A stretch of 64,000 nucleotides of DNA, taken from positions 1-64,000 of the forward strand of contig JAJDWA010000001.1 in NCBI GenBank assembly GCA_022825825.1, written 5' to 3'. The notes beneath the pieces were generated by a model. It had not been told where the DNA came from. It searched no databases and saw only the letters and a program-made list of their open reading frames with translations. This stretch comes from Candidatus Poribacteria bacterium. Its GTDB lineage: Bacteria; Poribacteria; WGA-4E; WGA-3G. Positions 51,357-61,681 of this stretch are shown one piece after another (the first letter of the stretch is position 1; every line of letters starts with the position of its first letter). A program made the translations under genes and the position numbers.

Positions 51357-51469
51357 TCAAAGTAAACACATTTTCATGGTTTTAACCCCTCCTGCATTGA
51401 GATTTAGTAGGTTTTGAGCTATTTTTGATAAATATCAGCTTAAATTTGTTTCAATTGTGACAATTCTGC

Positions 51470-51494
51470 AACCTATCCACCCAAAAAACGCGTC
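51470..51494 (+). promoter_or_regulatory. ECF-type promoter upstream of the first sigma-WD40 gene
   Basis: GCAACC (AACC at 51470-51473), 17 nt, CGTC (51491-51494). AAC-type -35 and CGTC -10 elements at this distance are the hallmark of ECF sigma promoters. The whole 90-bp upstream block is repeated at 56485-56577 before the other sigma-WD40 gene. Confidence 0.6.
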
Positions 51495-51533
51495 ACCTAT
51501 TCTGTAAGCCAAAATTGACTATGGAGGTCTCAA

Positions 51534-54290
51534 ATGGAAAGAGACGATGTTGAACTAATCCACAGGACATTGTCAGGTGACGAAGCTGCATTCAGCGAGT
51601 TAGTCCAAAAATATCAAAAAAGTGTTCACGCGCTTGCCTGGCGGCAAATCGGTGATTTTCACATCGCTGAAGAAATTACCCAAGACACTTTTCTGCAGGC
51701 ACACAAAAAGCTTGGCTCACTGAAAAATCCGAACCAGTGTGCTGGGTGGCTGTATGTAATCGCAGACCGGCTTTGCAAAGCCTGGTTTCGAAAAAAGAAA
51801 CTACATACACAGTCGCTTGAAGCTACCAGTGTAGAAACACTTGAAAAAACCGCTTATGCAGATTATGTCTGTGAAGAACGTGAAGACGCAGCCGTTGAAC
51901 ACCGGCGTAAAATTGTGCAAAAGCTCATGGAAAAACTGCCGGAAAGTGAACGCACAGTGATGGTTCTTCACTATCTCGGAGAAATGAGTTGTGAAGCAAT
52001 TAGCAAGTTTTTAGGTGTGTCTCCGAACACGGTTAAAAGTAGACTTAAACGTGCACGAGAACGTTTACAGAACGAAGAACACATCATTCGGGAAACACTC
52101 GGCAGTGTCAGACTTCCTGCCAACCTAACTGAAAACATCATGCGGCGCATTGACACAATTAAACAAACATCTCCATCAGGAGGCAAACCGTTACTACCAT
52201 TTGCAGCTTTAGGTGCATCTGCTATTTTGGTTATTTTGTTGATGGGTGCAAGCAAGCAATTCACCACTAATTTTCAGCGACCTTATAGCGTTGACGCAAA
52301 ATCAGAACCCACTATTGAAATCGTTGACGTACCAGTCGTCCTTAATATTCAATCAAAACCAGAATTGCAAAACCGGGTTGGTGGCACGAATCAAAGCAAA
52401 AACAGTAACAACGGTCTAACAGAAGGAACAAAAAAAGTGAAAAACAACTTAGCACAAGACCCTATGCAATGGAACCTGCCTGAAGATGCTAAAGCACGTA
52501 TTGGTAAAGGTAAGATAAATGCGATACAGTATTCTCCCGATGGGACAATACTTGCAGTCGCAAGTAATATTGGTATTTGGTTCTACGATACAAAAACACA
52601 TCAAGAGATCGCACTACTTACAGATCATGAGGGTGAAGTTACCAACATCACCTTCAGTCCAGATGGACGCTATTTTGCAAGTAGGAGTAAACATAGTAGC
52701 GAAGAAGGGAACATTCTACTGTGGGATAGGAGTTCGGGGGCGCAAACAACACTTCCCGTGGATACAAGTTTGTTCCTAAACATCGGCTTGAGATTTAGTC
52801 CAGATGAAAAGACACTTGCCTGTGGAATCGGAGATACTATTACATTTTGGGATACCGTCACCGGAAAGCAGAAGTCTACATTCACTAACGAGACAATAGA
52901 GGATAACAACTATTTATCTTTTTCTCCAGATGGAGAAACAATCGTTTGTGTTAATTGGGACGGAATTGTTAGTTTGTGGGATCCGATCGCTGGTAAACAT
53001 AAGAAAACAATTTCAGCACAAAAAACGTTTACGTGGAGTGCAGCGTTGAGTCCGGATGGAAAAACAATCGCTACGGGTTGTGAGAATGGTGCTGTCTACC
53101 TGCGCGATTTAAATACAGGTGAACTTAAGTTTACACTCAGTGGACATACGTGGGATGTTGACAATTTAGTGTTCAGTCCGGATGGAAAAACCCTCGCAAG
53201 TGCTTCGTATGTTGATGAAACAATTTGCCTATGGGATGTTTATACCGGAGAGCACAAGCGAACACTCACTGGACACACTTGGGATATTCGCGGCATAGCG
53301 TTCAGTCCAGATGGAAAAACAATTGTTAGTGGTGGTGCTGATGATAGTATTCGTTTTTGGGATGTACATACAGGTAACCAAAAACATATCATCACTGGGC
53401 ATACGGAGTGGGTTGCGAGTGTGGCGTTCAGTCCAGATGGAAAATTAATTGCAACCGGCTATGAGGGAGGTAATCTTCGCTTCTCGGATGTAAACACAGG
53501 ACAACCAGTCAAAATATTTGATGGATTCAAGGATTGGATTCCAAGTATCGTCTTTACAAAAGATGGAAAAACACTTGTGTGTGGAAGCGGCGAAAACATC
53601 CACCTACTGGATTCACACACAGGCGAACACAAAATGCTACTCACTGGACATACGGGCGGTATTCAGAGTGTTGCCCTCAGTCCCGATGAAAAAATAATCG
53701 CCAGTGGAAGCGAAGACAAAACTATTTGTCTATGGGATATGCTTACTGGCAAACAGAAAGTAATACTCATAGGACATAATCATAGAGTCTATAGCGTCGC
53801 TTTTAGTCCGGATGGAAAAACCCTCGCAAGTGCAAGTGATGATGACACCATTCGAATATGGGATGTTATAACTGGTGAAGATAAGATGATACTCACCCAA
53901 CCTGGTGGACATGAAGAAAAGGTTGAAGGGATCACGAGCGTAGCGTTCAGTCCGGATGGAAAAACCCTCGCAAGTGGCAGTAGGGATCACATTATTATCC
54001 TATGGGATATAGATACAGGAAAAAGCAAGATGACACTTTTTGGACACAGATACCCGGTATTCAGTTTAGCCTTCAGTCCAGATGGAAAAACCCTTGTGAG
54101 TGGATGCACGGATGGTGACATCCGCATGTGGAATGCGCACACCGGTGAGCAGAAGAAAGCATTAACGGGTCATACAGGTTGGGTCAGAAGCATCGCTTTT
54201 AGCCCAGATGGAAAAAGCCTTGTAAGTGGAAGTGATGACGGCACTGTGCTATTATGGGATATGACGCAAATCCTACCTCAAAACGATTAG
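51534..54290 (+). CDS. ECF sigma factor fused to a membrane segment and WD40 propeller (copy 1)
   Basis: 918 aa. Sigma region 2 (residues ~20-90: YQKSVHALAWRQIGDFHIAE, then EITQDTFLQAHKKL) and region 4 (~130-182: LMEKLPESERTVMVLHYLGE, then SPNTVKSRLKRARERL) are complete. A single membrane helix follows at ~220-240 (LPFAALGASAILVILLMGAS), then a ~70-residue linker and about 13 WD40 blades to the end (pattern FSPDGKTLASGS...IRLWD). The topology places sigma inside and the propeller outside, so the propeller may sense a ligand and release the sigma part. No anti-sigma gene is adjacent. GGAGG precedes the ATG. Confidence 0.93.
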   Translation: MERDDVELIHRTLSGDEAAFSELVQKYQKSVHALAWRQIGDFHIAEEITQDTFLQAHKKLGSLKNPNQCAGWLYVIADRLCKAWFRKKKLHTQSLEATSVETLEKTAYADYVCEEREDAAVEHRRKIVQKLMEKLPESERTVMVLHYLGEMSCEAISKFLGVSPNTVKSRLKRARERLQNEEHIIRETLGSVRLPANLTENIMRRIDTIKQTSPSGGKPLLPFAALGASAILVILLMGASKQFTTNFQRPYSVDAKSEPTIEIVDVPVVLNIQSKPELQNRVGGTNQSKNSNNGLTEGTKKVKNNLAQDPMQWNLPEDAKARIGKGKINAIQYSPDGTILAVASNIGIWFYDTKTHQEIALLTDHEGEVTNITFSPDGRYFASRSKHSSEEGNILLWDRSSGAQTTLPVDTSLFLNIGLRFSPDEKTLACGIGDTITFWDTVTGKQKSTFTNETIEDNNYLSFSPDGETIVCVNWDGIVSLWDPIAGKHKKTISAQKTFTWSAALSPDGKTIATGCENGAVYLRDLNTGELKFTLSGHTWDVDNLVFSPDGKTLASASYVDETICLWDVYTGEHKRTLTGHTWDIRGIAFSPDGKTIVSGGADDSIRFWDVHTGNQKHIITGHTEWVASVAFSPDGKLIATGYEGGNLRFSDVNTGQPVKIFDGFKDWIPSIVFTKDGKTLVCGSGENIHLLDSHTGEHKMLLTGHTGGIQSVALSPDEKIIASGSEDKTICLWDMLTGKQKVILIGHNHRVYSVAFSPDGKTLASASDDDTIRIWDVITGEDKMILTQPGGHEEKVEGITSVAFSPDGKTLASGSRDHIIILWDIDTGKSKMTLFGHRYPVFSLAFSPDGKTLVSGCTDGDIRMWNAHTGEQKKALTGHTGWVRSIAFSPDGKSLVSGSDDGTVLLWDMTQILPQND

Positions 54291-54310
54291 TGCCTATCTT
54301 ATGCTAAACA

Positions 54311-54418
54311 GGACTTACGCATTTTTACGTGATAACGGATGTCCGACGAACTGCAGAGTTTTTTGCTTGGGTATTTCTTTAGGGTTTTAAACCCCACCAG
54401 CGAGGGACTGTGTAAGTC
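54311..54418. repeat. Inverted-repeat stretch between sigma-WD40 and WD40 genes
   Basis: GGACTTACGCA at 54311 and TGTGTAAGTC ending at 54418 are imperfect inverted copies. 'atgcgtaagtcc' also occurs near 2589. An internal GGGTTTTAAACCCC hairpin (54382-54395) is present. Confidence 0.4.
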
Positions 54419-54526
54419 GTACTAAATTTTGGACAATTTACGAGCAATTTTAGTAAACCTCATAAAAGAAAGAACATGCTAAAATGTTTGCAAGGATATG
54501 GCATTCACAGATATGGATGACTCAAA

Positions 54527-56413
54527 ATGAAAAAGACGCTGTTTTCCAATTTTTTGATACTGCTTGTTGCTTCAATGCTGTATCCACCTAACACCCTTGC
54601 CGAAGATCCAACGCAATGGAACCTGCCTGAAAATGCCAAAGCACGACTCGGCAAAGGTAAGATAAATGCGATACAGTATTCTCCCGATGGTAAAGTGCTC
54701 GCTGTTGCGAGTGGTATCGGTATTTGGCTGTACGACGTAACAACACATCAAGAGATCGCCTTACTTACAGAACATACGAGTGTAGCCTCCAATATTGCAT
54801 TCAGTCCTGATGGACGCCTTTTTGCAAGTGGAAGTAAGGATGGCACCATCATGTTATGGAATAGAAACACAGGGACACAAACAATACTTACAATACCTGT
54901 GGGTTTGTCCCCATACATGAACATGGCATTCAGTCCAGATGGAAAAACATTTGCGAATGGAAGTCGTGGAACCATCAACATTTGGGATGCTTTCACTGGA
55001 GAACAGAAGTCTTCAGTCACCAGTGATGTGATAGATTCAAATAACTTTATCTCATTTCTACCGGATGGAGAAACAATTGTTTGTGTTAATTGGGGCGGAC
55101 TAATTAGTTTATGGAACATGAGTACTGGTAAACTTAAGAAGACAATTGTAGATGTAGATCATACAGCTCCTATATGGGGAATAGCCCTTAGTCCTGACGG
55201 AAAGACAATCGTAGTGGGTAGTGGTGATATAGATGGTAATATTTACATCATCGACTTAAACGCGAGTGAACTCATGTTTAAACTCAGCGGACATTCGGGG
55301 GATGTGAACTGTTTAATTTTCAGTCCAGATGGAAAAACCCTCGCAAGTGCATCTTATGTAGATGAAACAATCCGACTATGGGATGCAAACACTGGTGAAC
55401 ACAAGCGAACACTCACTGGACATACAGGAGATATTCTGGGTTTAGCATTTAGTCCAGATGGACAGACAATCGCAAGTGGAAGTGGCGATGGTACCATCCG
55501 TTTATGGGATGCGTCCACAGGCAACCAACAAATTGAATTTATTGGACATACGGATTATGCTGAGAGTGTCGCATTTAGCCCCGATGGACAGACAATCGCA
55601 AGTGGATATAGTGATGGTTACATTCGGTTGTGGAATGTAGACACCAGAAAACACATAAAAACATTCAAAGAGTCAAAAGATTATGTACAGAGTTTGATGT
55701 TCACGACAGATGGAAATACACTTACTTCTGGAATTGGCGAAAACATTTATCTGTGGGATGTTCATACGGATAAATTTAAAAAAATAATCTCTGGACATCT
55801 AATGGCTATCAATAGTGTAGCACTCAATGCTGATGGAAATATACTTGCAAGTGGAAGTGCGGACAATACAATTCGTCTATGGAATATGATTACTGGAGAA
55901 CATACAAAAACACTCATAGGACATGAGCATAGCATCTATGGTGTAACATTTAGCCCAGATGGTAAAACGCTTGTAACGGGTAGTGACGACAATACGATAC
56001 GATTTTGGGATGTAAACACTGGCGAGACCAAGATGATATTGAATGCTCTTACTGTAGATGGAAAAGATAAAGGTGTCATGAGTGTTGCTTATAGTCCAGA
56101 CGGTAAAATCCTTGCCAGTGGAGGCATGGAAACTATTATTATATGGGATATAAATACTGGTAAAAGTAAGATGACACTCTCAGAGCATAGACATTATATA
56201 CTTTGTTTAAGTTTCAGCCCAGATGGTAAAACGCTTGCAAGTGGAAGTACGGATACAGATATCCACCTATGGGATCCACACACTGGTGAACTCAAGAATA
56301 CATTTATAGGACACACTGGTTCGGTTTCTGGGATTGCCTTTAGCCCAGACGGAAAAACCCTTGTAAGTAGTAGTAATGACGGCACTGTGTTTCTCTGGGA
56401 GATAAATCCTTAG
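54527..56413 (+). CDS. Secreted WD40-propeller protein, sigma-less paralogue
   Basis: 628 aa. Signal peptide (SNFLILLVASMLYPPNTLA, then EDPTQWNLP). From TQWNLPENAKARLGKGKINA onward it aligns with the extracytoplasmic part of the two sigma-WD40 proteins, and it carries about 13 WD40 blades (SPDGKTLASGSTDTDIHLWD and similar). The sigma, membrane and linker parts are replaced by the signal peptide. It is a soluble periplasmic version of the same sensor domain. The ribosome site is weak (GGATGACT). Confidence 0.9.
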   Translation: MKKTLFSNFLILLVASMLYPPNTLAEDPTQWNLPENAKARLGKGKINAIQYSPDGKVLAVASGIGIWLYDVTTHQEIALLTEHTSVASNIAFSPDGRLFASGSKDGTIMLWNRNTGTQTILTIPVGLSPYMNMAFSPDGKTFANGSRGTINIWDAFTGEQKSSVTSDVIDSNNFISFLPDGETIVCVNWGGLISLWNMSTGKLKKTIVDVDHTAPIWGIALSPDGKTIVVGSGDIDGNIYIIDLNASELMFKLSGHSGDVNCLIFSPDGKTLASASYVDETIRLWDANTGEHKRTLTGHTGDILGLAFSPDGQTIASGSGDGTIRLWDASTGNQQIEFIGHTDYAESVAFSPDGQTIASGYSDGYIRLWNVDTRKHIKTFKESKDYVQSLMFTTDGNTLTSGIGENIYLWDVHTDKFKKIISGHLMAINSVALNADGNILASGSADNTIRLWNMITGEHTKTLIGHEHSIYGVTFSPDGKTLVTGSDDNTIRFWDVNTGETKMILNALTVDGKDKGVMSVAYSPDGKILASGGMETIIIWDINTGKSKMTLSEHRHYILCLSFSPDGKTLASGSTDTDIHLWDPHTGELKNTFIGHTGSVSGIAFSPDGKTLVSSSNDGTVFLWEINP

Positions 56414-56512
56414 TGTCTCCAATTCATAATATCTGCGTTGGTAGTAGTCCAATTCATTGTACGTGTTTTGTCCACAAAAACCGAGTTTTGTTTCAAATTA
56501 TGACAATTCTGC

Positions 56513-56538
56513 AACCTATACCCGAAAAAAAACGCGTC
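56513..56538 (+). promoter_or_regulatory. ECF-type promoter upstream of the second sigma-WD40 gene
   Basis: AACC (56513-56516), 18 nt, CGTC (56535-56538), one base longer than copy 1 because of an extra A in the spacer A-tract. Flanking sequence (tgacaattctgcaaccta, cattctgtaagccaaaattg) is nearly identical to that of copy 1. Confidence 0.6.
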
Positions 56539-56577
56539 ACCCATTCTGTAAGCCAAAATTGACTATGGAGGTCTCAA

Positions 56578-59349
56578 ATGGAAAGAGACGATGTTGAACT
56601 AATCCACAGGACATTGTCAGGTGACGAAGCTGCATTCAGCGAGTTAGTCCAAAAATATCAAAAAAGTGTTCACGCGCTTGCATGGCGGCAAATCGGTGAT
56701 TTTCACATCGCTGAAGAGATCACCCAAGACACTTTTCTGCAGGCACACAAAAAGCTTAGCTCACTGAAAAATCCGAACCAGTTTGCTGGGTGGCTGTATG
56801 TGATCGCAGACCGGCGTTGCAAAGCCTGGTTTCGAAAAAAGAAATTACATACACAATCGCTTGAAGCTACCAGTGTAGAAACACTTGAAAAAGCCGCTTA
56901 TGCAGATTATGTCTGTGAAGAACGCGAAGACGCAGCCGTTGAACACCGACGTAAAATTGTGCAAAAACTCATGGAAAAGCTACCTGAGAGCGAACGCACG
57001 GTGATGGTCCTTCACTATCTCGGAGAAATGAGTTGTGAAGCAATTAGCAAGTTTTTAGGCGTCTCCCCGAACACGGTTAAAAGCCGACTACAACGCGCGC
57101 GAAAACGTTTACAGAACGAAGAACACATCATTCGAGAAACACTCGGCAGTGTCCCATTACGACCAGATTTAACTGAAAACATCATGCGGCGCATTGACAC
57201 AATCAAACAAACATCTCCATCAGGAGGTAAACCGTTACTACCTTTCGCAGCTTTAGGCGCATCTGCTATTTTAGTTATTTTGTTGATGGGTGCAAGCAAG
57301 CAATTCACCGCTAATTTTCAGCGACCGTATAGCGTCGACGCAAAATCAGAACCCACTATTGAAATCGTTGACGCGCCAATTGTTCTTGATATCCAATCAA
57401 AACCAGAATTGCAAAACCGGGTTGGTGGCACGAATCAAAGCGAAAACAGTAACAACGGTCTAACAGAAGGAACAAAAAAAGTGAAAAACAACTTAGCACA
57501 AGACACAACGCAATGGAACCTGCCAGAGGATGCCAAAGCACGTCTCGGTAAAGGTAGGATAAATCAGATACAGTATTCTCCAGATGGAACAATACTTGCA
57601 GTGGCGAGTGATATTGGTATTTGGTTCTACGATACAAGAACACATCAAGAGATCGCCTTACTTACAGAACACACGAGTGCAGTCTCCAGAATTGCATTCA
57701 GTCCAGATGGACGCTTTTTGGCCAGTGTAAGTAAAGATAATAGCACTATACTGTTATGGGATAGAAGCTTAGGGACGCAAACAACGCTTAACGCGCACAG
57801 AGATTTAACATCAGACTTGAACATTGCATTCAGTTCGGATGGAAAAACCCTGGCAAGTGGAAATAACGATACTATTCGATTATGGGATGCAACCACAGGA
57901 GAACTAATATCTACACTTACCAACCTTACGATTCAGTTCAATAACTTCTTATCTTTTACACCGGATGGTGAAACAATTGTCTCTGGGAATTGGAATGGAA
58001 ATATTAGTCTCTGGAATTCGGCCACCAATGAACATAAGATAACAATTCATAAACACACAGACACAGATTCCACATGGAGGTTTGCGCTCAGTCCAGATGG
58101 AAAAACATTCGCTATGGGTAGTTCGCATGAGGAGCATGATGGTGCCATCTATCTTTATGATTTAAATACAGGTGAACTCAAATCTACTCTTACTGGACAT
58201 TTTGAGGACGGACATTTTGAGGATGTGGAATATATGGTATTCAGTCCGGATGGAAAAACATTCGCAGGTGCATCATATTATGGGGTAATCGGGCTATGGG
58301 ATGTACACACTGGTGCACACAAGCTGATACCTACTGGACATACGTACAGCATTCGCGACATAGTCTTCAGTCCGGATGGAAAAACATTCGTGAGTGGAAG
58401 TGATGACAGTACCATTCGCTTTTGGGATGCGCGCACGGATAAACCCCAAAATATAATCACTGGACATATTGAAAATGTTGATAAGGTAGCGTTCTATCCT
58501 AATGGGCGTTTTTTCATAAGTGCAAATATGCTTGCTATTCGCGTGTGGGATGCAGACACAGGGGAACACATCAAAAAGTTAGAATTTTCGAGTGGGGGAG
58601 ATATTATAGGCATCACTTCAGCTGGAAAAATAGTCGCCAGACAAAGACAATACACAAGCGATGGTGAAGACACGACCATCCTCCTATGGGATGTCCACAC
58701 TAACGAACACAAAATGCTGTTCGCTGAGCATAGGTGGGGTCCTATCGGCATGGAGCTTAGCATGGGACTCAGCCCGGATGGTAAAACTCTCGCTACTGCA
58801 AATAAGGACAATACTATACGTCTATGGGATGTGAACACTGGCGAACAGAAAAAAACACTGACTGGGCATACCGATTGGGTTGAGGCCATAGCGTTCAGTC
58901 CTGATAATAAAACCCTCGCAAGTGGGAGCATGGAGAACAATGCGGTACGCCTCTGGGATGTTGATACTGGCAAGACCAAGATGATACTTATCGGACATAC
59001 ACATCCGGTTGAAGTCGTATCGTTCAACCCTGATGGAAAAATTCTCGCAAGTGGAGACGGCCACGGGATAATCCATCTATGGGATATAGACACAGGGAAA
59101 ACCAAACTTACACTTGTTGGGCATGCAGATCGGGTGTACGATTTAGCGTTCAGCCCTGATGGAAAGACCATTGCAAGTGGATGTTTTGATTCTACGATCA
59201 ATTTATGGGACGCACACACTGGCGAACATAAGAAAACGTTGAATGGTCATACAGCTTTAGTCAGCGGTTTAGCATTTAGTCCTGATGGCAGAACCCTCGT
59301 TAGCGGTAGTTATGATGGCACTGTGTTTCTCTGGGAGATAAATCCCTAA
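56578..59349 (+). CDS. ECF sigma factor fused to a membrane segment and WD40 propeller (copy 2)
   Basis: 923 aa, paralogue of the protein at 51534. The first ~310 residues (sigma region 2, region 4, membrane helix, linker) are almost identical to copy 1, differing at scattered positions (C69 of copy 1 is Phe here; SVRLPAN is SVPLRPD). The WD40 half is much more divergent, with insertions such as TGHFEDGHFEDVEYMVFSPD and IGITSAGKIVARQRQYTSDG. The pair therefore shares an output domain but has diverging sensors. It ends at a strong terminator (59396). Confidence 0.93.
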   Translation: MERDDVELIHRTLSGDEAAFSELVQKYQKSVHALAWRQIGDFHIAEEITQDTFLQAHKKLSSLKNPNQFAGWLYVIADRRCKAWFRKKKLHTQSLEATSVETLEKAAYADYVCEEREDAAVEHRRKIVQKLMEKLPESERTVMVLHYLGEMSCEAISKFLGVSPNTVKSRLQRARKRLQNEEHIIRETLGSVPLRPDLTENIMRRIDTIKQTSPSGGKPLLPFAALGASAILVILLMGASKQFTANFQRPYSVDAKSEPTIEIVDAPIVLDIQSKPELQNRVGGTNQSENSNNGLTEGTKKVKNNLAQDTTQWNLPEDAKARLGKGRINQIQYSPDGTILAVASDIGIWFYDTRTHQEIALLTEHTSAVSRIAFSPDGRFLASVSKDNSTILLWDRSLGTQTTLNAHRDLTSDLNIAFSSDGKTLASGNNDTIRLWDATTGELISTLTNLTIQFNNFLSFTPDGETIVSGNWNGNISLWNSATNEHKITIHKHTDTDSTWRFALSPDGKTFAMGSSHEEHDGAIYLYDLNTGELKSTLTGHFEDGHFEDVEYMVFSPDGKTFAGASYYGVIGLWDVHTGAHKLIPTGHTYSIRDIVFSPDGKTFVSGSDDSTIRFWDARTDKPQNIITGHIENVDKVAFYPNGRFFISANMLAIRVWDADTGEHIKKLEFSSGGDIIGITSAGKIVARQRQYTSDGEDTTILLWDVHTNEHKMLFAEHRWGPIGMELSMGLSPDGKTLATANKDNTIRLWDVNTGEQKKTLTGHTDWVEAIAFSPDNKTLASGSMENNAVRLWDVDTGKTKMILIGHTHPVEVVSFNPDGKILASGDGHGIIHLWDIDTGKTKLTLVGHADRVYDLAFSPDGKTIASGCFDSTINLWDAHTGEHKKTLNGHTALVSGLAFSPDGRTLVSGSYDGTVFLWEINP

Positions 59350-59490: not shown

Positions 59491-59552
59491 TATCATTTCT
59501 TTTTCTAAAATTCTCAGATGAAATAGCGAATATGACCATTGTGGAGGCAATT

Positions 59553-60491
59553 ATGCACCTAATTACACTGAAAAACTGGTCAGAAACGAAAATTCTCAAA
59601 ACTGTAGAAGACTGCCTAAAGATCAAAAAATATCCTGAAAAATATAGACACGCTGCTGGCGGGTTGAGTCTTGCATTGCTTTTCCAAAAAACCTCTACTC
59701 GTACACGCTGCGCGGGAGAAGTTGGTATTGTGCAGCTTGGTGGACACGCGCATTATTTAGACTGGCGGACGACTAACTTTGGCTTGGCAGACCTCAGCGA
59801 TGAAATTCGCGTCCTCTCTGCGTATGTTGATATAATCTTAGCTCGCTTTTTAAAACATGGCGATATTTGCGAGGCAGGGACAGCGGCATCCGTTCCTATC
59901 ATCAACGGTTGTTGCGACAGATACCACCCAACACAAGCACTCGGTGACTTAATGACAATACAGGAACATCTCGGCAGGTTAGAAGGTGTAAAGGTTTGTT
60001 TTATCGGTGTCCATAACAATGTTTGCAATTCACTCATCGCCGCGGGAATGAAGGTAGGATTAGAAGTGACTGTCGTCGCACCAGAGATAAATCCTGCTGC
60101 AGTTGATAAGGAGCTATGGTCTGAAGCATCACAAAAAGGTTGCTATAAATCTGTTGAAACAGATTCTATTGATGGTGCCTTAGGACTACAGGAAATCATC
60201 GCGCAAAATGATGTTGTCTATACAGATACATGGATAGATATGGAATTTTTCACCGATCCAGATTTTGCAGAAGAGCGGGAACGCCGAATAAAAAAGATGA
60301 TGCCGTATCAGTTAAATCTCGCACTTCTTAAGGGACTTGATTGTAAAATAATGCACTGTCTGCCTGCACATCGCGGCTATGAAATTGCGGGCGAACTTCT
60401 TGATGATCCGCGTACAATCATTTTTGAACAATCCGAAAACCGTCTTCACAGTATGAAAGCTATTATTCTCGAACTACTTGGGCGTTTGTAA
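59553..60491 (+). CDS. argF: Ornithine carbamoyltransferase-like protein
   Basis: 312 aa from the ATG at 59553 (GTGGAGG upstream). Carbamoyl-phosphate site LLFQKTSTRTRCAGE (residues 42-56), HPTQALGDLMTIQEHL, and KIMHCLPAHRGYEI are all present. Where ornithine enzymes have D-x-W-x-S-M-G, this one reads TDTWIDMEFFTDPDF, so the amino-acid pocket differs; the exact substrate, ornithine or a derivative, needs testing. The gene likely forms an operon with thrC 38 bp downstream. Confidence 0.82.
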   Translation: MHLITLKNWSETKILKTVEDCLKIKKYPEKYRHAAGGLSLALLFQKTSTRTRCAGEVGIVQLGGHAHYLDWRTTNFGLADLSDEIRVLSAYVDIILARFLKHGDICEAGTAASVPIINGCCDRYHPTQALGDLMTIQEHLGRLEGVKVCFIGVHNNVCNSLIAAGMKVGLEVTVVAPEINPAAVDKELWSEASQKGCYKSVETDSIDGALGLQEIIAQNDVVYTDTWIDMEFFTDPDFAEERERRIKKMMPYQLNLALLKGLDCKIMHCLPAHRGYEIAGELLDDPRTIIFEQSENRLHSMKAIILELLGRL

Positions 60492-60529
60492 AGCGGTTGG
60501 TTCTTTTCGGCATTGTGTTGGGTTAAAGT

Positions 60530-61681
60530 ATGAAAAACTATCTACTACATCTTGAATGCAGCAGATGCGGTGAAATATACCCACATGAAATACCTCAGAA
60601 TGTATGTCATGCGTGTGGAAAACCGTTGTTTGCGCGTTACGCGCTTGAGCAATTAGTAGATAGATGGAAACCTGAGCACCTTCAGTCAAGACCTACTTCA
60701 CTATGGCGATATAGAGAGCTTTTACCCGTTTGCGACGAGGATAATATTGTTTCACTTGGAGAGACAATGACCCCGCTTATCCATGCGAAAAGGTTGGGTG
60801 AGCAACTCGGATTGCCAAAGCTATGGATAAAGGATGAATCCCGCTTACCGACTGGAAGCTTCAAGGCACGTGGCTTGGCGATGGCTGTTTCCAAGGCGAA
60901 GGAACTCGGTATTAGCAAATTGGCTATTCCATCTGCAGGAAATGCAGCAACAGCATTGTCGGTATATGCTGCGTGTGCTGGTATCCCTGCCTACATCTTT
61001 ATGCCGAAAGATACGCCTGCCTTTAATCGTGAAACATGCAGGCTTGCAAGCGCAAACGTCACATTGATTGACGGCTTAATTACAGATGCAGGCAAAATAG
61101 TTGCTGAACGCAAAACAGATGAAGGGTGGTTTGATGTTTCAACCCTCAAAGAGCCTTATCGCGTGGAAGGCAAAAAAACAATGGGATTTGAGCTTGCAGA
61201 ACAGTTCGGTTGGAAACTGCCAGATGTAATAATCTATCCTACTGGCGGTGGTACGGGTATTGTAGGCATGTGGAAAGGTTTTGCTGAACTGGAGGCACTC
61301 GGGTGGATTGGTCCGAAAAGACCACGGTTTATTTCAGTTCAGGCGACGGGTTGCGCCCCAATTGTGAAGGCGTGGGATGAAGGCAAGTCGGATGCTGAAC
61401 CGTGGCAAGATGCCCAAACTATAGCCAGTGGGTTACGGGTGCCGCAAGCTATCGGTGATTTTCTTATTTTAGACGCAATTCGTAAAAGTGGTGGTGCTGC
61501 AATTGCTATCACAGATAATGCTATCACTGAAGCAATGCATCTATTGCCAACGACTGAGGGGATTTTGACGTGTCCTGAAGGCGCGGCAACAGTTGCGGCA
61601 CTTAAGCCACTCATAGCGAACGGAATTATTAAGCCTTCTGATAGAGTTGTGTTATTTAACACTGGTGGGTATCAGGCATAG
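60530..61681 (+). CDS. thrC: Threonine synthase-type PLP enzyme
   Basis: 383 aa. N-terminal rubredoxin-like zinc knuckle (LECSRCGEIYPHEI, NVCHACGKPLF; four Cys). PLP lysine in DESRLPTGSFKARGLAMAVS, then IPSAGNAATALSVYAACAGI, VIIYPTGGGTGIVGMWKGF (phosphate loop) and CPEGAATVAAL. It converts O-phosphohomoserine to threonine, if true to family; the zinc-headed subgroup also includes cysteate or threonate-related enzymes. Confidence 0.87.
   Translation: MKNYLLHLECSRCGEIYPHEIPQNVCHACGKPLFARYALEQLVDRWKPEHLQSRPTSLWRYRELLPVCDEDNIVSLGETMTPLIHAKRLGEQLGLPKLWIKDESRLPTGSFKARGLAMAVSKAKELGISKLAIPSAGNAATALSVYAACAGIPAYIFMPKDTPAFNRETCRLASANVTLIDGLITDAGKIVAERKTDEGWFDVSTLKEPYRVEGKKTMGFELAEQFGWKLPDVIIYPTGGGTGIVGMWKGFAELEALGWIGPKRPRFISVQATGCAPIVKAWDEGKSDAEPWQDAQTIASGLRVPQAIGDFLILDAIRKSGGAAIAITDNAITEAMHLLPTTEGILTCPEGAATVAALKPLIANGIIKPSDRVVLFNTGGYQA

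Follow-up and report, generated by a model that had tools for sequence, protein, structure and literature searches.

The window, that is, the whole 64,000-nt stretch of Candidatus Poribacteria DNA analyzed here, belongs to contig C10 of a 5.1-Mb genome assembled in 75 contigs. It carries a pair of related genes (gene 1, positions 51534-54290; gene 2, positions 56578-59349), whose unbroken open reading frames encode proteins of 918 and 923 amino acids, and a further WD40 gene lies between them (Table 1). Both proteins have the layout of ECF (group 4) sigma factors, with sigma regions 2 and 4 and without region 3. They score far above the curated cut-off of the sigma model TIGR02937 (42.9 bits), and a profile built from 104 sigma-anchor modules of this family matched SigW (5wuq) over its full length, at profile positions 8-181 (E 6.8e-34). 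Each protein contains a single standout hydrophobic segment, with a mean Kyte-Doolittle hydropathy of 2.35 at residue 220 and next windows of at most 0.95, and each matches the WD40 model PF00400 (E 2.4e-115 for gene 1). The order of sigma factor, helix, and WD40 repeats within one frame of about 920 residues, reported twice in an earlier note made from the letters of this DNA, is thereby confirmed, and its estimate of about 13 blades was nearly right. The AlphaFold model of gene 1 (made with 22 relatives, mean pLDDT 75.6, pTM 0.63) has 56 strands by our count between residues 319 and 909, which form 14 four-stranded blades in two 7-bladed rings, as in WD40 propellers. The top Foldseek match of this model was the highly repetitive propeller 2ymu (37% identity over 592 columns, query TM-score 0.35), and the likeness is confined to the propeller structure. 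A chance open reading frame is ruled out by the PF00400 and TIGR02937 scores.

Table 1. Features of the two-gene locus, in positions of the window.
Feature	Positions	Strand	Basis
ECF-like element of gene 1: TGCAACC, 16-nt spacer, GCGTCA; ends 38 nt before ATG	51467..51495	+	Promoter model, E 1.1e-5 in own genome; site in training set
Gene 1, sigma regions 2 and 4, residues 1-180	51534..52073	+	TIGR02937, 94.3 bits; SigW 5wuq profile match
Gene 1, conserved tether from sigma part to helix, residues 181-219	52074..52190	+	Module alignment; no known fold
Gene 1, predicted transmembrane helix, residues 220-238	52191..52247	+	Mean hydropathy 2.35; helix in 109/109 modules
Gene 1, conserved outer stem, residues 239-290 (FQ-PYS-A-SE-TVE pattern)	52248..52403	+	Module alignment
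Gene 1, 14 WD40 blades, two 7-bladed propellers, residues 312-910	52467..54263	+	PF00400; AlphaFold; Foldseek
Stand-alone WD40 protein, 628 aa, signal-peptide-like start, between gene 1 and gene 2	54527..56413	+	ORF, PF00400, hydropathy
ECF-like element of gene 2: TGCAACC, 17-nt spacer, GCGTCA; ends 38 nt before ATG	56510..56539	+	Promoter model, E 0.011 in own genome
Gene 2, sigma regions 2 and 4, residues 1-180	56578..57117	+	TIGR02937, 98.5 bits
Gene 2, tether, residues 181-219	57118..57234	+	Module alignment
Gene 2, predicted transmembrane helix, residues 220-238	57235..57291	+	Hydropathy
Gene 2, conserved outer stem, residues 239-290	57292..57447	+	Module alignment
Gene 2, linker and WD40 repeats, residues 291-923	57448..59346	+	PF00400, E 9e-95 (sequence match)

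By eye, the genes at 59532-61681, after the pair, look like ornithine carbamoyltransferase and threonine synthase, and no anti-sigma gene was noticed beside the pair. The gap after gene 1 (54300-54440) holds GGACTTACGCA and, about 100 nt further on, a near inverse copy, TGTGTAAGTC, an arrangement like that at the termini of small mobile elements. One further GGACTTACGCA lies at position 2590 on the minus strand (2 matches against 0.64 expected). The 141-nt stretch within the 54291-54526 gap has no other copy in the window's own genome, so its reading as a repeat element was rejected.

A search of this genome with residues 1-252 hit 59 places at an E value of 1e-3 or lower, among them 38 genes clearly of the same sigma type (E of 6e-57 or lower, the next best being 3.5e-29). 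The helix is present at residue 220-224 in 31 of the 38, so that the two proteins first noticed are a real pair but understate the size of their family. Members form arrays on contigs C6, C47, C54, and C75, and their outer parts in this genome include WD40 repeats, BNR/sortilin-like repeats, CarboxypepD_reg domains with or without a C-type lectin domain, and short unnamed ones, with Kelch, LRR, Reg_prop, C-type lectin, Big_5, and Peptidase_M16_C domains in other members. The remaining 7 genes have no helix, and one of these (on C18) is cut by a contig end. In helix-less C65:126413, sigma region 4 is followed by a short remnant resembling the end of the stem (KPDILYQ) and then by the same kind of propeller, as though the segment with the helix had been lost by deletion. 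The C-terminal parts of two other helix-less members, C43:24772 and C61:55405, match Peptidase M61 and, weakly, TrmB/HTH models. Moreover, three genes of another ECF subgroup (C53:60835, C53:63911, and C65:120367) are fused straight to WD40 repeats without any hydrophobic helix. Together with the helix-less members, these fusions suggest that a propeller can also be cytoplasmic, and the 7 helix-less genes argue against a strict need for the tether.

In an alignment of 109 modules, 31 from this genome and 78 from foreign loci (L104 was left out), the helix is found at the same place in every one, with a hydropathy of at least 1.68. It is followed by a stem in which F247 (96%), Q248 (99%), P250 (98%), Y251 (99%), A255 (95%), E258 (92%), and E262 (93%) are conserved; since the stem is kept while the domain behind it varies, it belongs to the module, and our guess is that it serves as a cleavage or dimerization site. 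Lysine and arginine residues flanking the helix are more frequent on its N-terminal side in 59 modules, less frequent in 21, and equal in 29, a weak positive-inside bias. C-type lectin, LRR, Kelch, BNR/sortilin, Big_5, and Reg_prop domains are mostly exported. The membrane tether with an outside sensor that the earlier note had envisaged is therefore supported by the ubiquity of the helix, by the ectodomain-type partners, and by exported look-alikes of the outer domains (see below), less so by the charge bias, and an outward-facing propeller is supported by these sequence features but not proven. Its further suggestion that the helix region acts as an internal anti-sigma-like tether was not supported. 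A Pfam search with residues 191-279 matched no family, and neither window protein has a cysteine in residues 181-219, so that the zinc-finger anti-sigma motif of ECF52 and ECF53 was not found there. The AlphaFold model of the module has a pLDDT below 50 over residues 191-290 and a pTM of 0.35 and hence says nothing on an anti-sigma fold.

A scan of genome contigs with the 31-row module alignment confirmed at least 520 candidates, and the matches listed comprise 79 distinct foreign loci, all titled Candidatus or uncultured Poribacteria. The order of sigma part, helix, and outer domain recurs in 76 of these 79 listed loci; the exceptions are L104, with no readable open reading frame by our rule, L075, with 351 aa, and L063, a sigma-helix frame of 339 aa whose propeller follows as a separate match and which we read as a local break. 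At an E value of 1e-40 or lower, the module was found in 53 of 58 genomes of the phylum: in every one of the 42 genomes sampled from the window's family, at 1 to at least 41 copies, and in 11 of 16 others, at 0 to 8 copies. In six of these outer genomes, 33 matches yielded 30 loci. Of 30 distinct modules read there on both strands, 25 have a helix near residue 212-226 with a hydropathy of at least 1.7, one reaches 1.63, and 4 have none; the PYS stem pattern is present in 6 of the 30. By these counts, the order of sigma part, helix, and outer domain is phylum-wide, and the stem and the expansion are typical of one family. The homologues with this order that the earlier note had proposed to look for thus exist, and its concern that the fusion might stem from an assembly or frameshift join is excluded for the family by recurrence in the window's own genome, in foreign loci, and in G011 and G038, two genomes that each consist of one contig. 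The one stretch of G011 that was compared (L196) lacks the genes flanking the window's pair. A plasmid search for the module returned 602 records, all below 60% identity, and each of the best 30 of the 602 either was an ordinary sigma factor or carried no annotation.

Mapped onto a FastTree tree of 155 modules, the outer class has to switch 34 times, compared with a minimum of 2 and a shuffled mean of 66.4, so that the label is also clustered on the tree. Branches with good support already require 11 or more switches for WD40 and 15 or more for BNR; these counts are approximate, as the classes are motif based. For the window pair, dN/dS is 0.06 in the sigma part and 0.30 in the propeller, and this purifying selection argues against decay. 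Synonymous divergence amounts to 0.23-0.37 for codons 1-360 and to 1.08 for the propeller, so the two halves of these genes did not evolve together, owing to gene conversion or exchange.

Most family genes are preceded by an element of the form TGCAMCC-N16-GCGTCA, the halves of which we take to resemble the -35 and -10 elements of ECF promoters. A raw pattern count over the 31 helix-bearing genes of the window's genome found it with at most two mismatches (15-17 nt spacing) in 23, with three or four mismatches in 4, and not at all in 4. A sequence-only promoter model was built from 27 sites of this genome, 4 of them from helix-less members, and gave 52 matches there at an E value of 10 or lower, the training sites matching by construction. 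When it was applied to the 79 listed foreign loci, 98 of 99 matches at an E value of 1 or lower fell on the strand of the family gene, and 70 lay no more than 330 nt upstream of a module gene; among foreign module genes with at least 150 nt upstream, 68 of 96 have a match. In 37 stretches of G011 and G038, a few of which overlap, the 59 matches comprise 29 before module genes, 19 before other open reading frames, and 11 with none in range, and 27 of 49 full module genes have a match, the other 22 being without one in range. Provided that the sigma part reads this element, the sharing of it predicts autoregulation and possibly cross-activation.

The element also stands upstream of genes outside the family, and good matches at C38:82933, C43:4408, and C71:73205 precede genes that we read as a MoxR-type ATPase, an ABC transporter ATPase, and another ECF. 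A defined regulon was considered and rejected as too mixed, the nonfamily matches preceding exported proteins, parts of ABC transporters, a MoxR-type ATPase, and another ECF (names by our reading).

The gene at 54527-56413 encodes a protein that shares 60% identity with the outer part of gene 1 across 611 columns, and at the window a pairing of fusion and look-alike is suggested by this identity and by the sandwiched position of the gene. A first pairing test, covering loci of this genome together with the foreign ones, was positive in 34 of 127 cases, where 9.9 were expected. A second, in three genomes, compared the outer domain of each fusion with the nonsigma open reading frames of the same stretch; the surroundings of other family members in that genome served as the control. 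Among fusions without a WD40 or BNR pattern, 14 of 26 had a homologous neighbor, compared with 1.34 expected, where classes come from our motif counts and some of this group may be degenerate BNR proteins. All 14 lie on the same strand, and 10 have a strongly hydrophobic start (hydropathy of at least 2.2 over 12 residues). WD40 fusions showed no clear excess (8 of 18, where 5.05 were expected, and 4 of these 8 lie on the opposite strand), nor did BNR fusions (2 of 34 against 1.27), for which both matches are one open reading frame, L192:10699, apparently the outer half of a family member that has been broken. A general rule of pairing was accordingly rejected, an excess being visible only in the class without a WD40 or BNR pattern. 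Some exported neighbors follow a promoter-model match (at L133, L084, L141, L201, and L219); among 11 look-alikes checked in G011 and G038, a match lies within 100 nt in 2 and about 1 kb upstream in 2 more.

Sequence comparison establishes the architecture, its conservation, the swapping of outer domains, and the shared promoter element, and leads us to propose, with confidence only a little above even, that these proteins are one-piece transmembrane sigma receptors, with the sigma part inside, the sensor outside, release by proteolysis, and positive feedback. The sigma part would lie in the cytoplasm, anchored by the helix, and the stem and double WD40 propeller beyond the inner membrane, binding a partner. 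Tethering would stop the sigma part from transcribing; binding of the partner would lead to a cut in or near the stem and then, by a site-2 protease, in the membrane, setting about residues 1-220 free. The freed sigma factor would read TGCAMCC-N16-GCGTCA and raise expression of its own gene, perhaps of sister genes with the same element, and of some exported proteins. We infer sequestration at the membrane and release by intramembrane proteolysis by analogy with IutY, and from the precedents of IutY and ECF52, release either by proteolysis or by a conformational change is plausible, as had been suggested before. The window's genome has an intact site-2 protease gene (Peptidase_M50, E 5.1e-72), but such a gene is present in 14 of 14 control genomes too.

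A tethered receptor with its sensor outside might also act uncut, binding or clustering altering its shape or oligomeric state so that the sigma part works at the membrane. ToxR- and CadC-type regulators work at the membrane without cleavage. Neither a cleavage site nor a protease gene dedicated to the task was identified, and the conserved stem could serve dimerization; however, a sigma factor has to travel with RNA polymerase, and the one tested precedent, IutY, is cut (PMC8999054), so that we regard this reading as unlikely. We consider it a little less probable again that the helix does not span the membrane, or is a mere recruiter to it, and that the WD40 part is a cytoplasmic protein-interaction platform. 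That is how WD40-bearing ECF57 factors are proposed to act (PMC8999054), and the seven helix-less relatives and three direct sigma-WD40 fusions of the same genome fit it, but it would have to accommodate a hydrophobic segment that keeps its position throughout 109 modules, outer partners of the C-type lectin, LRR, and Big_5 kinds, and a propeller relative with a signal-peptide-like start in the same locus.

Least probable of all, in our judgment, is that we are dealing chiefly with a self-amplifying, autoregulated gene family that is kept by recombination and whose single copies sense little. Purifying selection on the propeller and the presence of the module in every sampled genome of the window's family count against it, even though the tandem arrays on four contigs, a promoter element directed at the family itself, the many outer-domain switches in excess of the minimum, and the differing histories of module and propeller are what it would lead one to expect.

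If the receptor model with proteolytic release holds, a single reporter in E. coli would make it possible to study signaling in a phylum represented here almost entirely by metagenome assemblies, and the outer domains would amount to a list of what Poribacteria sense. What began as a two-gene curiosity becomes a testable family with one sigma-anchor module, many swappable outer domains, and one promoter element. More tentatively, and as an idea that we would sooner doubt than adopt, Poribacteria may possess a phylum-specific repertoire of tens of one-piece sigma receptors per genome, all of one family, each of them derived from the duplicate of an exported protein by exchange of its signal peptide for the sigma-anchor module. 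All would feed one promoter class, and the adjacent exported look-alike would share the ligand as an effector, competitor, or feedback element. The hosts of Poribacteria are sponges, and such a many-sensors-to-one-regulon system, if real, would perhaps sense the animal host or neighboring bacteria.

No paper on WD40 domains and sigma factors in Poribacteria turned up in the literature collection searched. Fusions of ECF sigma factors to WD40 repeats have been reported from Planctomycetes (PMC8567305; PMC11032199; ECF57 in PMC8999054), and in T. immobilis such sigma factors were recovered in detergent-soluble fractions. With ECF57, the window proteins share an N-terminal ECF sigma factor, a WD40-like C-terminal extension, and many paralogues; as judged from the description of that group, the Poribacteria family differs in its helix and conserved stem after the sigma part and in an outer domain that is often not WD40, such repeats marking only part of the wider family. 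Two conserved cysteines possibly link sigma regions 2 and 4 in ECF57 (PMC8999054); if C81 and C153 are this pair, they occur here in 105 and 35 of 109 modules, respectively, and the second would not be conserved. IutY of Pseudomonas putida, described as a one-piece membrane sigma factor with a proposed proteolytic release, by Prc and RseP (PMC8999054), likewise has a transmembrane segment followed by an outer part, predicted here from hydropathy. In contrast, IutY carries a fused anti-sigma part and serves iron cell-surface signaling, whereas no anti-sigma part was found here by Pfam (residues 191-279) or in the low-confidence model (pLDDT below 50). ECF52, represented by SCO4117 of Streptomyces coelicolor, also joins a sigma factor, a membrane part, and an outer domain, the last being carbohydrate binding, and it is described with a zinc-finger anti-sigma part (PMC8999054) and comes from Actinobacteria, in contrast to the cysteine-free 181-219 region of these proteins from Poribacteria. 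The fusion of sigma factor and WD40 domain is known from Planctomycetes, and what is new is a modular, promoter-linked receptor family in Poribacteria.
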